A stretch of 36,384 nt of DNA from a virus, in the IMG/VR virus record IMGVR_UViG_3300010399_000062, positions 1 to 36,384 of that record. One strand, written 5' to 3'. The notes below the pieces were generated by a model. It had not been told where the DNA came from, did not search any database, and saw only the letters and a list, made by a program, of their open reading frames with translations. A program made the position numbers and the translations under genes. The stretch's first letter is position 1. Each line of letters opens with the position of its first letter. Positions 23,763 to 29,515 of the stretch are shown in pieces.

Positions 23763-24746
23763 TTAATTTCTCCTCATTTCAGAAAATTTTATCATCTCAT
23801 CAAGATTTTCTTGCAAAGTCATTGTCTTTAAAGGGGGAAGACCAATTTTTTCCCTTATTCTTGCCTGCTGTTCTGCGTATGTTTCCTCCTTCTTCGGTTG
23901 TTCAGTGATTGTTTTCCTTTCCTCTAGACAGTTGTATTTTTTCTCCTTTAAGAACTTCGAGAATCCCCTTTCTGCGATATCTAAGGTCACATTGTTAATG
24001 TTCATGAACTGATGAAGGTTTGATAAAGACTGGAATTTGCAGAACTCATCAAAAAATATCTGGGCTGTCAAATCTGGAAACTGTTTGAATATGGAATCCA
24101 CATTTTTCTGAGAAACTTCGAATGTTATAAATTTCTCTTTCGTAAACTTTTTAACGAAGTCTCCAAATATTCCAGATAGCCTATTTTCTAAGCATTTTTC
24201 TTTTTTCTTAACATCATTAAAAGTGTGTGTGTCTGTCTTTTCCTCACACACATGAGGGAGTTCATTGGGGGAGCTAAGACTGGGGGAGCTAAGTGTGTGT
24301 TTTTCACACTCATCATACGTGTGTTTTTCACACTCACTTGAGTGTGTTTTTCTCACGTACCTATGTGTGTTTTTCACACTCAAGTTTTTAGAAAGATACT
24401 CTCGATAGTTTTTGAAAACTTTTTCAGTAAGTCTATAAAAAAGAGTTCTGTAATCGATATTAAATTTTTCACATTCTTCTACGGTCGATGTTCTGCTTTC
24501 TAACCATCCATCTTTCTGTATTTCCTTAAGACGTTTATTGATCTCTATGCGCGAAGATCCAATCCAAGTTGCCATGGTCTCGTGGTGGATGTAACGCCAT
24601 TCTCTGAAATTTCCCTTGAAATTTAGACCTTGTGCAAATCTCATGAGGATACGATATTCGAGATGGCTTAGATCAGGAATCGCGTCAATTTCTAATAAAT
24701 AACGCCCTCCTCCAGTTGACATTTCTTCGTTTTTATCTGATAACAT
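23763..24746 (-). CDS. Replication initiation protein, lambda O-like
   Basis: A 327-residue protein. Residues 15-110 form a winged-helix-like domain ('LSHLEYRILMRFAQGL', 'IHHETMATWIGSSRIEINKR', 'EIQKDGWLESR'), as in O/DnaD-type initiators. Residues about 120-175 are Ser/Thr/Glu/Lys/His-rich with repeats (ECEKHT twice) encoded by the iterons. The C-terminal part (190-327) is helical and would contact the replication machinery. An initiator whose gene carries its own iterons is the lambda O arrangement. AGGAG is a few bases upstream of the ATG. The call is strong from layout, moderate from sequence. Confidence 0.72.
   Translation of the reverse strand: MLSDKNEEMSTGGGRYLLEIDAIPDLSHLEYRILMRFAQGLNFKGNFREWRYIHHETMATWIGSSRIEINKRLKEIQKDGWLESRTSTVEECEKFNIDYRTLFYRLTEKVFKNYREYLSKNLSVKNTHRYVRKTHSSECEKHTYDECEKHTLSSPSLSSPNELPHVCEEKTDTHTFNDVKKKEKCLENRLSGIFGDFVKKFTKEKFITFEVSQKNVDSIFKQFPDLTAQIFFDEFCKFQSLSNLHQFMNINNVTLDIAERGFSKFLKEKKYNCLEERKTITEQPKKEETYAEQQARIREKIGLPPLKTMTLQENLDEMIKFSEMRRN
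24223..24382. other. Putative replication origin inside initiator gene
   Basis: Four direct repeats of GTGTGTTTTTCACACTCA begin at 24295, 24319, 24342 (degenerate: GTGTGTTTTTCTCACGTA) and 24365, spaced 24, 23 and 23 bases. Each is also a hairpin (GTGTG-TTTTT-CACAC). Beside them is a direct duplication of TGGGGGAGCTAAG (24266-24278 and 24281-24293), then a looser GTGTGTGTGT...CACACACA pair (24223-24252). An AT-rich tract (24181-24222, about 19% G+C) lies next to that. This is the plan of the lambda origin: iterons plus AT-rich segment within gene O. Confidence 0.72.
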
Positions 24747-24816
24747 AAGTACTCCTAGTGTAGAGAGATTCCGAAGCCATCTTCCCCGATGGCTTTTTCC
24801 ATTTACCCCATTTCAT
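24733..24816 (-). CDS. Possible leader peptide (27 aa) before initiator gene
   Basis: A short open frame (MKWGKWKKPSGKMASESLY...) that is basic, contains two Trp, and overlaps the start of the initiator gene. It has no direct ribosome site, but it begins in an ATGA overlap with a four-codon GTG frame that follows AAGGAGGTG. Coupled translation through this leader could tune the initiator. It may equally be untranslated leader. Confidence 0.25.
   Translation of the reverse strand: MKWGKWKKPSGKMASESLYTRSTYVIR
24774..24798 (+). terminator. Hairpin with T-run (plus strand) in initiator leader
   Basis: AAGCCATC (24774-24781), loop TTCCCC, GATGGCTT (24788-24795) make an eight-base stem followed by T to 24798. 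On the plus strand it has the form of an intrinsic terminator that would stop transcripts running antisense to the initiator gene before the fibre promoter. On the minus strand it is a hairpin in the initiator mRNA leader, about 28 bases before the start codon. Confidence 0.5.
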
Positions 24817-25017: not shown

Positions 25018-25132
25018 GTGTAAATTCATCATACCTAGTTTTTTTGGCATTGCAAATCAGTCCATCAAAAATCTATTTACATATCGATGCACACATTTTA
25101 ATCTTTTTTTGTACTTACCAAAGGAGAATAAA

Positions 25133-25630
25133 ATGGTAGCACCAGCTATAACCAGCATCGCCCCATCGAGCGGCACAAACTTAGGAGGAACAAGCGTTGT
25201 CATCACGGGTACTGACTTTACAGGAGCAACATCTGTCTCTTTTGACAGTGTGCCTGCTGCGAGTTTTGTTGTTAACTCAGCAACTCAAATCACAGCTGTA
25301 TCACCGGCTTTAGGTAGCGGAGGGGTTGCGATTAAGAACATCATAGTCGTGACACCGGGTGGAACATCTTCGATAAACTTTGCTAGCCAATTTATCTATG
25401 TTCAACCACATCCAGTACCTACTTATACTGTAAACAATGTGTTTTTTGATCCATTAGCTAACTACACATTCTTTGGACATGTAGAGTTTGCTTATGCTCC
25501 AACCTTTCCAGATATGGGTGGAGTAGTAGCAGGAGGTGGCGCTAAGCCTGCAGGTACATTGCCCGCTGGCTATTACGTAGTTGCATACAATCCAAACACA
25601 CGCACTTACTCATACGTAACGGGGTACTAA
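25133..25630 (+). CDS. Fibre-associated protein with IPT/TIG-like domain (165 aa)
   Basis: A 165-residue protein with an N-terminal Ig-like IPT/TIG domain (residues 3-90): 'PAITSIAPSSGTNLGGTSVV', 'GTDFTGATSVSFDSVPA' and 'VVTPGGTSSI' are the classic pattern P.I..I.P..G...GG..V.I.G..F. The next block, 'FFDPLANYTFFGHVEFAY', is shared with the following gene. The start at 25133 has AAGGAG six bases before it; a longer frame upstream covers the terminator and is not credible. Such domains decorate phage tails and may bind sugars. Confidence 0.68.
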   Translation: MVAPAITSIAPSSGTNLGGTSVVITGTDFTGATSVSFDSVPAASFVVNSATQITAVSPALGSGGVAIKNIIVVTPGGTSSINFASQFIYVQPHPVPTYTVNNVFFDPLANYTFFGHVEFAYAPTFPDMGGVVAGGGAKPAGTLPAGYYVVAYNPNTRTYSYVTGY

Positions 25631-25633
25631 AAA

Positions 25634-26365
25634 ATGGCTGCACCAACAGTAACATCGATTTCACCGAGTTTTGGCGTACTTGCTGGAGGTTATACTGTAG
25701 ACATTGTCGGAACAGGTTTCTCCGTCAGTGCACCTACTGTCAAATTTGACCAAACGGCTGCAACAAGCGTTGTAGTTTTAACAGACTTACATCTAACCTG
25801 CGTAGTTCCAGCTACATCAGCTGTCCATTCAGTTCATGTAACTGTGACAACTACAGATGGAACTTCACAAGTAAATGATGCGAGCTTATTTTACTATGTA
25901 AGCGCTGTACCTCAACCAACCTATGACACTTACAATCCTTTCTTTGACCCATTAGCTAATTACACATTTTACGGTGAAGTTAAGTTTGCCCGTGGTGTTG
26001 CAAGTAGCGGTGGTGGTGGTGGAGGTGGTGGTAGTGGATTAACTTGGGTTTCTAATAGCACCACATCAATCACAATGGCTGCTGGAACTGGATACATTAC
26101 AACAAATGCTGGTGCTATTGCCGCAACTCTACCAGGGGGCGCTGCTGTGGGAGATGTTTTTGGAATAGCTAGATCTGGAGCAGGTAATTTTACAATTACA
26201 ACTCCTGGTGGATCACTCTTTAGACTAGCATCCAGTCAAGGTACAAGTGTTGCGAGTACTCAACTCGGAGATACGCTGCAGATCGTATGCGTCGCCGCGC
26301 CTGCGCCAGGGGTAGTATCATTTATGGCAATTAGTGCAACTGGCTCAACATTTAGCGTAACTTAA
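25634..26365 (+). CDS. Fibre protein with IPT/TIG-like domain and C-terminal beta tip
   Basis: A 243-residue paralogue of the previous gene with an added tip. Residues 3-90 are IPT/TIG-like ('PTVTSISPSFGVLAGGYTV'), residues about 98-118 carry the shared 'FFDPLANYTFYGEVKFA', then a polyglycine hinge (about 125-135). A C-terminal domain (135-243) contains 'AATLPGGAAVGDVFGIARSG', a pattern seen in receptor-binding tips of phage fibres. The first gene looks like this one with the tip replaced, which suggests duplication. Confidence 0.62.
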   Translation: MAAPTVTSISPSFGVLAGGYTVDIVGTGFSVSAPTVKFDQTAATSVVVLTDLHLTCVVPATSAVHSVHVTVTTTDGTSQVNDASLFYYVSAVPQPTYDTYNPFFDPLANYTFYGEVKFARGVASSGGGGGGGGSGLTWVSNSTTSITMAAGTGYITTNAGAIAATLPGGAAVGDVFGIARSGAGNFTITTPGGSLFRLASSQGTSVASTQLGDTLQIVCVAAPAPGVVSFMAISATGSTFSVT

Positions 26366-26378
26366 GGAGTAATAAAAA

Positions 26379-27272
26379 ATGGTAGATACTAACGCCACAG
26401 GCACGCAGACGGACAGTTTTTCAAATAGTGGTAACTGGAGCTTTTTAGGGACTAACTTCGATGTTACCGCAACTGGTATTGGTCAGATTGATGCACCATC
26501 TCTAAACATTGGTATTTCACTAGCGACCACAATGAACTTTGGTAATGTAGGTTTGTCAATAACGATGACCGCTTTACTTTACAATATCGTATCTCCTGGT
26601 TTGAGATTTTCGAGCTTGCTGTCGGGGCCGCCAGCTGGAAAATTCGCTGTGTTGGCCGATGGATCTGGGAATGTTTCACTAAGCAATACGCCTAGTGGTT
26701 CAGGAACAAGTTGGGATGTAGGCGGTAATACTGGTTTAGCAGACCCCAGTATATTTGGTACACTTGATGCAGCTGGGATTAGTTTTATAGTAAACACATC
26801 AAGTTTTATGGATGTTAGTGCTACAAAAAATGTTACTTTTGCTTTCGATGATGTCACTTTTAATGCAGGCGGAGTAGCTGTTCTTTTTGGAAGTGGTACA
26901 ACATCGTTACAAATTGGCTATACAGGAATGCCTGTACAGTACTATGGCAGCACGATGAACCTTTCATCAAATGCTAACATGACAATAACAACTGCCGCAG
27001 ATATGTTTTTACAAGTACCTATCGGTGCATTCGATTTGGGTGTTGCAGGCGCGATTACGCTAGGCTCTGGATTATCGATCGGCTTATCTGGCCCAAATAT
27101 TACGATCAATTCAACTGCTTTGACAAATACAACCACAATTGGAAATGTTTTAGCAGGGAACGTCGTAAACATTAACTCTGCAAGTATTAGAGTGCCGAAT
27201 ATCCCAGTAGCCACTGGCGGTGAGCAAATGTTGATGTGGGATTCTGTGACAGGCGAAATTAGACACACTTAA
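26379..27272 (+). CDS. Tail fibre-like protein (297 aa)
   Basis: A 297-residue Ser/Thr/Asn/Gly-rich protein with many short beta repeats, as in trimeric fibres. Near residues 225-265 it has 'ITINSTALTNTTTIGN' and 'NVVNINSASIRVPN', closely matched in the next gene. It ends 'QMLMWDSVTGEIRHT', like the end of the fifth gene ('VALMYDTGTGQIYHA'). AAGGAG lies upstream. It is probably a receptor-binding fibre subunit. Confidence 0.57.
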   Translation: MVDTNATGTQTDSFSNSGNWSFLGTNFDVTATGIGQIDAPSLNIGISLATTMNFGNVGLSITMTALLYNIVSPGLRFSSLLSGPPAGKFAVLADGSGNVSLSNTPSGSGTSWDVGGNTGLADPSIFGTLDAAGISFIVNTSSFMDVSATKNVTFAFDDVTFNAGGVAVLFGSGTTSLQIGYTGMPVQYYGSTMNLSSNANMTITTAADMFLQVPIGAFDLGVAGAITLGSGLSIGLSGPNITINSTALTNTTTIGNVLAGNVVNINSASIRVPNIPVATGGEQMLMWDSVTGEIRHT

Positions 27273-27289
27273 CAAGTTTGGAGAATAAA

Positions 27290-28579
27290 ATGGCAGCTTA
27301 TACTATACCAGGCGATTTCACATGGACGGGGGCCATAACTGTAACTGGTAGCTTTTCTATGGGATCAGCTACCGATTTTTCTATTAGTGTTTCTAATGAC
27401 ATCCAAATGGAAGCAGGTAACAATGCCCGTTTCGATAGTGCATTTGGCGCTACAGGTGGCGTTCTTATTGCAAATTCTAATGCAACATCCTTTAATATGG
27501 GCAATACATCCTGTGCAATAGATATCGCTTCCTCTACGTATACATTAAATGCATCCGGAGATGCGAATCTACATTCTACTACAGCAGTTGATATTGATGC
27601 ACCAACCACAGGACTGGGCGGAACTTCCACTCTTGTAGGCATTGGTAATAGTGGTGCAGGTGTAACAGTTGTTGGTGCAACGTTATCAATAAATGCAGTT
27701 ACAAATATCGATTTTGGTGCTACTGTTGCTAACATTAATATGGGTAGTATCACTACTGGTATAGGAATACTAGGAGATGACATCACGATACATGGTGATG
27801 GAGACGTGGTTGTAGAGTCAGGAAGCGGCACGCAAACATTCGGTAATGTATTTAGACCTACGGGGCTTTTTGGAACCACTATTGATAGCTATGCTCAAAC
27901 TGGAGATGCTAGTTTTCAATCTGCTACTGTATTGCAGCTAGGCGGCGCTCTTACTCCGACCGTTCATCTTGCAAAAGATGTATTTACAACTTCTTTACTG
28001 GTAGGTTCGGGATCGACAGTTATTACAGTATCAGCGGATACATGTTCGCTGGATACAGTGGGAACATTACATCTAGGAGGAGGAGGGGCAACAACTCTTC
28101 AATCAGGATTAAGTGTTGATTTAGGAGCTCCAGGGGTTAACATTAATATTGCCGCTGCTACAAATACAACTACAATTGGAAACGCATTTGCTGGTAATAA
28201 TTTTGTTGTTAACTCAACAGCTGTAGACTTTCCAAATGCTAATTTCGCTATTGGTTCTATCGCCACTCCAGCAGGAGATTTTCATGTTTATTGTGGGAAC
28301 AATAGTGCAAATAGGATTGCAGCAGATCTTGGAACATCCCAGTTTATAATTGATTCGGTAGCATTGCGTTTAAACTCAAATGCTTTGGGTGCTCGTGTAA
28401 CTCTCGTAGGATTAGATGTGCCTGGAAATACTGTCTATCTTGTTCCTAACGATACAAGGATTCCAAATATTTCATCTCTTTCTGGAGATGCTGCAGTTCC
28501 TGCAACTGTTCAGCCTGCTGGCTATGCAACTGTAATATTGGAAATAGCAACTGGAAAGCTTGCATACTACGTCCAATAA
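27290..28579 (+). CDS. Tail fibre-like protein (429 aa)
   Basis: A 429-residue fibre-like protein opening 'MAAYTIPGDFTWTGAITV', nearly the same as the next gene's N-terminus. The body is repeated beta-type sequence. Near residues 275-315 it shares 'NTTTIGNAFAGN' and following strands with the preceding gene, also visible in the DNA (27121-27165 against 28156-28200). Start 27290 is used because TTTGGAG precedes it; an upstream TTG adds only four residues. Confidence 0.57.
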   Translation: MAAYTIPGDFTWTGAITVTGSFSMGSATDFSISVSNDIQMEAGNNARFDSAFGATGGVLIANSNATSFNMGNTSCAIDIASSTYTLNASGDANLHSTTAVDIDAPTTGLGGTSTLVGIGNSGAGVTVVGATLSINAVTNIDFGATVANINMGSITTGIGILGDDITIHGDGDVVVESGSGTQTFGNVFRPTGLFGTTIDSYAQTGDASFQSATVLQLGGALTPTVHLAKDVFTTSLLVGSGSTVITVSADTCSLDTVGTLHLGGGGATTLQSGLSVDLGAPGVNINIAAATNTTTIGNAFAGNNFVVNSTAVDFPNANFAIGSIATPAGDFHVYCGNNSANRIAADLGTSQFIIDSVALRLNSNALGARVTLVGLDVPGNTVYLVPNDTRIPNISSLSGDAAVPATVQPAGYATVILEIATGKLAYYVQ

Positions 28580-28594
28580 AAGGAGTGAATTAGC

Positions 28595-29515
28595 ATGGCT
28601 GCATATACGATAGCAGGTGATTTTACATGGACAGATACTGCTACCTTTAGCACTATAGATTTTAACGGACTAAATGCATTTGGAAATGGCAACATTGTCT
28701 TAGGCACAAATTCTGGGACTGTTCAATTCGGTACATCGTCAGGATCTAATACCATATATGGCAATCCTATCTGGTTAAAAGCTGAGGGTGGGCAATTAAA
28801 ACTTACTGCTGAAGTTGGCCAAACGATAGATTTCGAAGGAGATGCTGGAAATCTTTTAGCTATTAATATAGGTGCAGTTTTTACAGATGCAATAAATATA
28901 GGAAGTAACTCTGTTGTTATTTCAGAAAATAGCGCATCTTTTTCTCAAAAAATTGCAGGAACAAATATTTTTACAATAAGTTCTGGAAGAGATATTGTCT
29001 GGACTCCTGATGATTATACTATTACCGGAACTGGTACTTTAATAATAAATTCAGGACCTGTGACAAGTGGTAAGACTCTTCAAATTGGTACGGCAGCCGC
29101 AAGTTTTGTGGTAATTGGTAGTACAACTGCTAATGCTTTTTCAGAGATGTTAGGTTCACAGGTATATGTAACTGGCACATCAAATACTTTCATAAGCGGT
29201 CAAGCTGCAACATCGACTGCTAATAATACTGCCATCTATGGAAAGACAATAACGATCTGCCCAGTGTCTGATTGTACTGCTCTTAATGTAGGGTTCTCAA
29301 CGACCGCATGGACTACGACAGGTACAACTCACAATGGTACTTTCTCTTCAAGTTATACGCTTAATTCTACAGCTGGAAACATCACATTAAATGCTCCTTC
29401 CGGTACTCTCAATCTAACTTCTCCTATCGTCAAAATGCCATCGATTGGTGCTGATCCAGGTGGTACTGTTGCGCTCATGTATGATACTGGAACCGGCCAA
29501 ATTTATCATGCTTGA
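28595..29515 (+). CDS. Tail fibre-like protein (306 aa)
   Basis: A 306-residue fibre-like protein, opening 'MAAYTIAGDFTWTDTATF' like its neighbour and ending like the gene at 26379. AAAGGAG is upstream. It looks like a mosaic: the N-terminus of one paralogue with the C-terminus type of another. Last gene of the fibre block; only a weak AT-rich hairpin follows. Confidence 0.55.
   Translation: MAAYTIAGDFTWTDTATFSTIDFNGLNAFGNGNIVLGTNSGTVQFGTSSGSNTIYGNPIWLKAEGGQLKLTAEVGQTIDFEGDAGNLLAINIGAVFTDAINIGSNSVVISENSASFSQKIAGTNIFTISSGRDIVWTPDDYTITGTGTLIINSGPVTSGKTLQIGTAAASFVVIGSTTANAFSEMLGSQVYVTGTSNTFISGQAATSTANNTAIYGKTITICPVSDCTALNVGFSTTAWTTTGTTHNGTFSSSYTLNSTAGNITLNAPSGTLNLTSPIVKMPSIGADPGGTVALMYDTGTGQIYHA

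Follow-up and report, generated by a model that had tools for sequence, protein, structure and literature searches.

A probable lambda-ori-like replication origin inside a putative initiator gene of an uncharacterized phage

Organization of the locus

The window analyzed here is the whole of a 36,384-bp virus record, which may be incomplete because terminal repeats are absent. A minus-strand gene encoding a 327-aa protein (Table 1), preceded by a good ribosome-binding site (AGGAG, 24752–24756), heads a leftward group whose other genes encode a 108-aa protein and small proteins, all of unknown role, as well as a phage lysozyme (Pfam, E = 5e-23). Genes for a RecE-like nuclease, RecT, and SSB face this group from the opposite side, and the phage also carries a VRR-NUC gene. 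Family searches recognized no polymerase, helicase, primase, or helicase loader in the window, and no loader-like Walker A motif was found in it. A P- or DnaC-like loader gene is absent next to the 327-aa gene, whose neighbor encodes the 108-aa protein. The lack of recognized replication enzymes is as expected if an initiator recruits the host machinery. Relatives of the phage sought via its terminase amounted to only two contigs, with approximately 30% identity, that contained neither the gene nor the repeat array described below.

Elsewhere in the window, the minus strand encodes a papain-family cysteine protease (17140–18078; Pfam Peptidase_C1, E = 2e-7). The plus strand carries a run of rightward genes (25130–29515) with zero PHROG matches, which probably encode surface or tail proteins. 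The first two genes of this run have in common a repeated segment (25434–25491 and 25932–25989; 76% alike at the DNA level) as well as TIG-like sequence.

Table 1. Coordinates of the features of the putative initiator gene and its candidate origin (positions in the window)
Feature	Coordinates	Strand	Remarks
Putative replication initiator gene	23763–24746	-	327 aa; proposed from the probable winged helix, the array, and a distant relative
Probable winged-helix DNA-binding domain	24393–24695	-	Residues about 18–118; weak HTH_Crp_2 match, HTH_36 relative, O-like register
A+T-rich stretch across the iterons from the 42-bp tract	24383–24481		Alternative candidate unwinding element
Iteron 1 (gene sense), GTGTGAAAAACACAC	24365–24379	-	Frame 1; SVKNTH
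Iteron 2, GTGAGAAAAACACAC	24342–24356	-	One mismatch; frame 0; VRKTH
Iteron 3, GTGTGAAAAACACAC	24319–24333	-	Frame 2; ECEKHT
Iteron 4, GTGTGAAAAACACAC	24295–24309	-	Frame 2; ECEKHT
Direct repeat TGGGGGAGCTAAG, iteron-adjoining copy	24281–24293		13 nt; 15-bp period, in frame
Direct repeat TGGGGGAGCTAAG, second copy	24266–24278		13 nt
Inverted repeat TGTGTGTG / CACACACA	24224–24252		13-nt loop; -6.9 kcal/mol as ssDNA, z -2.9
42-bp tract, A-rich on the coding strand	24182–24223	-	Candidate unwinding element, from duplex weakness

The 327-aa product consists of a probable winged-helix N-terminus, an iteron-encoded linker, and a helical C-terminal part. Its matches to known families were a weak, below-cut-off hit to HTH_Crp_2 (residues 52–85; E = 5e-4), a weak MarR-type hit, and a PHROG annotated as "primosomal protein" (E = 0.009). 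Profile alignment brought residues 23–83 into register with the O-like winged helix; the match was weak (E = 0.025) and reached E = 5e-4 when one relative, from Pigmentibacter, was added. No Pfam, NCBIfam, or PHROG model of Phage_rep_O (PF04492) or of O-like proteins matched the 327-aa protein, whereas the Phage_rep_O model did match the initiators of two environmental phages used as positive controls (L006 and L008, described below). The RepA_N domain (PF06970) likewise gave no match at E ≤ 1, whereas a control gene (L084) matched it at 1e-25, and there was no match to the DnaD family. AlphaFold models of the whole protein (pLDDT 36) and of its N-terminus (pLDDT 61) yielded no meaningful Foldseek match. 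Close relatives of the gene were found neither by tblastn in phages (best E = 2), IMG/VR, or GTDB nor with a two-sequence alignment as query. A MAFFT alignment with the proteins of the two control phages was discarded as evidence of homology, since it misplaced the domains. Membership of the O or RepA_N family is not established; an initiator role is suggested by the probable winged-helix N-terminus, the array, and a distant relative on a probable phage-plasmid.

A phased iteron array within the gene

The gene contains four GTGTG-N5-CACAC palindromes with an A5 center (GTGTG-AAAAA-CACAC; one copy carries a mismatch), spaced by 24, 23, and 23 bp on the plus strand and hence by 23, 23, and 24 bp in the gene sense. 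They form part of 21-nt repeat copies (24292–24312, 24316–24336, 24339–24359, and 24362–24382) that are 76–100% identical to the reference copy, and they occupy codons 123–151 of 327, some 370–450 bp into the gene. All three reading frames are used, and the peptide ECEKHT appears twice; the spacings, frames, and residues agree with those of a preliminary description of this DNA.

Across the 36-kb window, GTGTGTTTTTCACAC occurred exactly or with one mismatch only at the four iterons (plus-strand starts 24295, 24319, 24342, and 24365), against a chance expectation of 0.12, and four or more matches arose in none of 100 shuffles. The array was also the top-scoring tandem repeat of the window, with a TRF score of 111 that was reached in 0 of 200 first-order Markov simulations (maximum, 73). 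A looser statistic was weaker: any 5-bp dyad appeared three times within 120 bp in 5 of 60 simulated windows, and this generic dyad-cluster test was set aside as too permissive to serve as evidence. When synonymous codons were permuted with the protein held fixed, three or more exact palindromes appeared in only 4 of 20,000 permutations (p ~2e-4); DNA rather than the peptide therefore accounts for the array. The earlier proposal that the DNA, and not the protein, is held constant was thereby borne out, where "conserved" applies only among the copies inside this array. A search of viral contigs with the exact 18-mer iteron gave no match.

Dyad symmetry is intact in all copies except one. The preliminary description had treated each repeat as a hairpin; such single-strand hairpins exist but have little stability (-3.3 kcal/mol as ssDNA), and a double-stranded dyad, that is, a dimer site, is consequently the better description.

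In the gene sense, the iterons are followed on their 3' side by the two direct repeats, the inverted repeat, and the 42-bp A-rich tract. The duplication of TGGGGGAGCTAAG noted previously is present at 24266 and 24281. An AT-rich tract of 42 bp does exist as described, but it lies just outside the interval 24223–24382 that had been assigned to the origin. This tract ranks within the weakest 1.4% of all 42-bp stretches and is separated from the last iteron by 73 bp. On the 5' side of the iterons, a tract at about 24409–24481 is similarly weak; it lies in the A+T-rich stretch 24383–24481, and no other 100 bp of the locus is weaker than this stretch.

Cumulative GC skew had a local peak at 21.15 kb and a local minimum at 25,972, with no extremum or switch at 24.3 kb, where one had been anticipated for an origin. 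The minimum at 25.97 kb tracks the point at which leftward genes give way to rightward ones and is explained by gene orientation; the skew neither supports nor refutes an origin.

Comparison with phage 434 and O-like phages

The annotated origin of phage 434 (record OL657226), which belongs to the ori-lambda type (PMC7466680, PMC3349717, PMC5043065), was used as a positive control. Its four gpO dyad sites lie inside gene O, after the part encoding the winged-helix N-terminus, and the palindromic iterons of the window gene are likewise located 3' of the probable winged helix. The sites are spaced 20/24/23 in phage 434 and 23/23/24 in the window (gene sense) and are read in frames 0/2/2/1 and 1/0/2/2, respectively, both sets covering all three frames. 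The 434 sites span codons 117–139 of 300, a range similar to that of the window iterons, given as 123–146 in this comparison. Both loci have an A-rich 3' tract of approximately 40 bp, although this tract adjoins the last iteron in phage 434 and is well removed from it in the window, where a second tract is found on the 5' side. The iterons themselves are unrelated (ATCCCTCAAAACGAGGGA in phage 434 and GTGTGAAAAACACAC in the window), and the O models do not recognize the window protein. Moreover, a P-like loader is encoded next door in the lambdoid type, whereas the window has a gene of unknown role followed by that for the endolysin.

Among 2.9 million viral contigs scanned, six contained two GTGTG-N5-CACAC dyads 4–20 bp apart. 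In two of the six, IMGVR_UViG_3300019890_000001 (L006/L089) and IMGVR_UViG_3300028800_000026 (L008/L090), this dyad class occupies the corresponding part of an initiator gene, spaced 24/23 bp and read in two frames; three copies lie in codons 107–132 of a winged-helix gene, compared with four copies in the window. The initiators of these two phages belong to Phage_rep_O proper (Pfam, E = 5.6e-14 and 3.5e-10), and in L008 the initiator gene is followed downstream by one for a DnaC-like loader, which the window lacks. The window protein had no match in either record. The repeat sequence had previously gone unrecognized; it does not correspond to a lambdoid iteron, although its dyad recurs in these other phages.

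Starting from these two phages, we fetched a set of 15 O-like records (L089–L103), and all 15 had an in-gene array in the same place. Ten records had spacings of 23/24 bp, and the remaining ones had 22, 22/26, or 27/23 bp; in L095, two GTCTY-N5-RAGAC dyads, read from the sequence, were 23 bp apart. The palindrome arms varied, including GTGTG, GTGTC, CTGTG, GTACC, CCCCT, and CCCCTCGG. As judged from these records, spacing is better conserved than palindrome sequence among O-like phages. That the spacing is kept while the palindromes change is the strongest argument for reading the 24/23/23 array of the window as an origin, although this argument may come from a protein family different from that of the window protein. 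In most of the O-like relatives, the last iteron and the A-rich tract abut or almost abut. The lambda-ori layout proposed for the locus was thus upheld by the anatomy of the 434 origin and by the same dyad and spacing in two Phage_rep_O genes, except for the distance of the A-rich tract, which is unlike that in phage 434 and most O-like relatives. In most of the 15 records, we also observed CACAAAAGAAAC (TKET) after the array and a GATTCAAATAATTC-like stretch (DSNN) before it.

Comparison with RepA_N replicons, SPP1, and a Pigmentibacter plasmid

In RepA_N replicons such as pSK41 and pTZ2162, the origin lies in the central, linker-coding part of rep, the initiator has a winged-helix N-terminus, and the iterons are direct repeats of semi-palindromic form, with inverted arms that meet at an A tract (PMC5703833, PMC7145576). 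The window resembles these replicons in origin position, in dyads around an A tract, and in the probable winged-helix N-terminus; its mid-gene GTGTG-AAAAA-CACAC repeats, with arms around a poly-A center, correspond to the RepA_N iteron as defined in those studies (PMC7145576, PMC5703833). The difference is that RepA_N does not match the window protein. A relaxed pattern scan also recovered L084, a RepA_N gene in which three TGTG-N5-CACA dyads are spaced by 23 bp and read in three frames. It is conceivable, though doubtful, that the GTGTG-N5-CACAC module is a recurrent site of at least three initiator families (orphan winged-helix, Phage_rep_O, and RepA_N), arising through shared recognition chemistry or through exchange of segments that combine origin and DNA-binding region, the 23/24-bp assembly geometry predating any single iteron sequence.

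The gp38 protein of phage SPP1 binds direct repeats in its own gene, at oriL, beside an AT-rich unwinding element (PMC6316719). By this description, SPP1 is similar to the window in layout, combining an initiator, in-gene repeats, and an AT-rich element, but differs in that it has an additional origin, oriR, and encodes a loader and a helicase of its own.

The sole detectable relative of the window protein was an HTH_36 protein and putative initiator (BFD33691.1) encoded on Pigmentibacter ruber plasmid pGTC16762-2 (AP029161). The two proteins share 27% identity over 116 aa in the winged-helix region (database E = 2; pairwise E = 2e-7), and we consider the relationship tentative. Because a phage baseplate gene is present on pGTC16762-2, this element is probably a phage-plasmid. 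The BFD33691.1 gene contains repeats of GCAAAACCTGCA, 22 and 44 bp apart and in two frames, located 3' of the HTH domain and followed by a TGTGTG..CACACA inverted repeat; the repeat sequence differs from that of the window, and the protein is longer. As a parallel to the window array, these in-gene repeats are suggestive only.

Repeats were also observed outside initiator genes. Metagenome-assembled genomes of Treponema, Spirochaetaceae, Tannerella, and Prevotellaceae contain head-to-tail units of 23–24 bp with a GTGTG-N5-CACAC dyad in each (L010, L012, L018, L021, L026, L037, L039, L042, L043, L057, L059, L066, and L076). These arrays share the geometry of the phage iterons, comprise 6–10 copies, occur several times per genome, and are mostly intergenic or outside recognizable genes. 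In genomes of Sedimentisphaerales and other Planctomycetota, copies occur of the inverted repeat GTAGGGTGTGC...GCACACCCTAC, which encloses a short AT-rich loop and resembles a dispersed miniature element (L014, L019, L022, L030, L031, L035, L036, L041, L047, L054, L061, and others). Neither the gut Treponema and Tannerella arrays nor the Sedimentisphaerales inverted repeats, all detected with the same pattern, were retained as initiator origins, as they are not in initiator genes. A short gene in L085 (2370–2640) has in-frame 24-bp repeats of TATGTGGAACCCACAAAGTCTAAC (YVEPTKSN) with the dyad TGTGGAACCCACA, and its product has a probable ribbon-helix-helix domain at the end.

Alternative explanations

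Taken together, the phased dyad repeats and the A+T-rich tract in the linker-coding region have the layout of an iteron origin, and we consider it very probable that the locus is a theta-type phage replication origin of the lambda-ori kind, located inside its own initiator gene. The palindromes could instead be operators, with the winged-helix protein acting as a CRP- or MarR-like regulator, roadblock, or autorepressor within its own gene and with no origin present. GTGTG-N5-CACAC has the typical shape of a dimeric HTH operator, and the weak HTH_Crp_2 and MarR-type matches agree with such a role. However, the array lies hundreds of base pairs into the gene rather than at a promoter; its 23/24-bp phasing, frame-crossing, and position after the winged helix match initiator genes with an embedded origin; and the window yielded no recognizable helicase, primase, or alternative initiator candidate. 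We regard the operator explanation as quite unlikely.

Very unlikely, in our assessment, is a peptide repeat or neutral tandem duplication in the linker with no function at the DNA level. The two ECEKHT copies, the adjoining in-frame LSSPS/LSSPN repeat, and the probably disordered nature of the linker would fit this explanation, but only one of the three spacings is a multiple of three, so that four copies fall in three frames, and the synonymous permutations as well as the dyad symmetry kept by all copies but one argue against it. The hairpins might also act in the transcript or as ssDNA, as a terminator-like structure or a recombination hot spot, instead of functioning as initiator sites in duplex DNA. 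Terminator-like structures were indeed predicted on the plus strand at 24329–24346 and 24365–24379, in addition to the single-strand folds mentioned above. Five-pair stems are weak, however, a terminator needs no four phased and evenly spaced copies, and the orientation would stop antisense transcription only; this is the least probable of the explanations considered.

Proposed mechanism and significance

For the preferred reading, a replication origin within the initiator gene, a mechanism can be proposed by analogy with lambda and pSK41 (PMC5043065, PMC3349717, PMC7466680, PMC5703833). The putative initiator would bind each GTGTG-A5-CACAC dyad as a dimer via its winged helix, and the bound array would bend or wrap the DNA. 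A neighboring A+T-rich tract, on one side of the iterons or the other, would then melt, and the C-terminal part of the protein would recruit the host helicase or its loader. In the linker-coding part, about two helical turns separate successive dyads, with A+T-rich DNA on either side of the array. The location of the sites in a tolerant linker would explain how the DNA can remain constant while the peptide varies.

The arrangement of an origin inside an initiator gene is already known from lambda, and the window provides an ordinary yet convincing example with a different sequence. It locates a likely replication start for an uncultivated, otherwise uncharacterized phage and gives a possible function to a gene left blank by homology searches. 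As O-like phages keep the spacing while the palindrome is replaced, origins that belong to orphan initiators can be located from array geometry instead of sequence, and one gene suffices to study how an initiator and its site coevolve.
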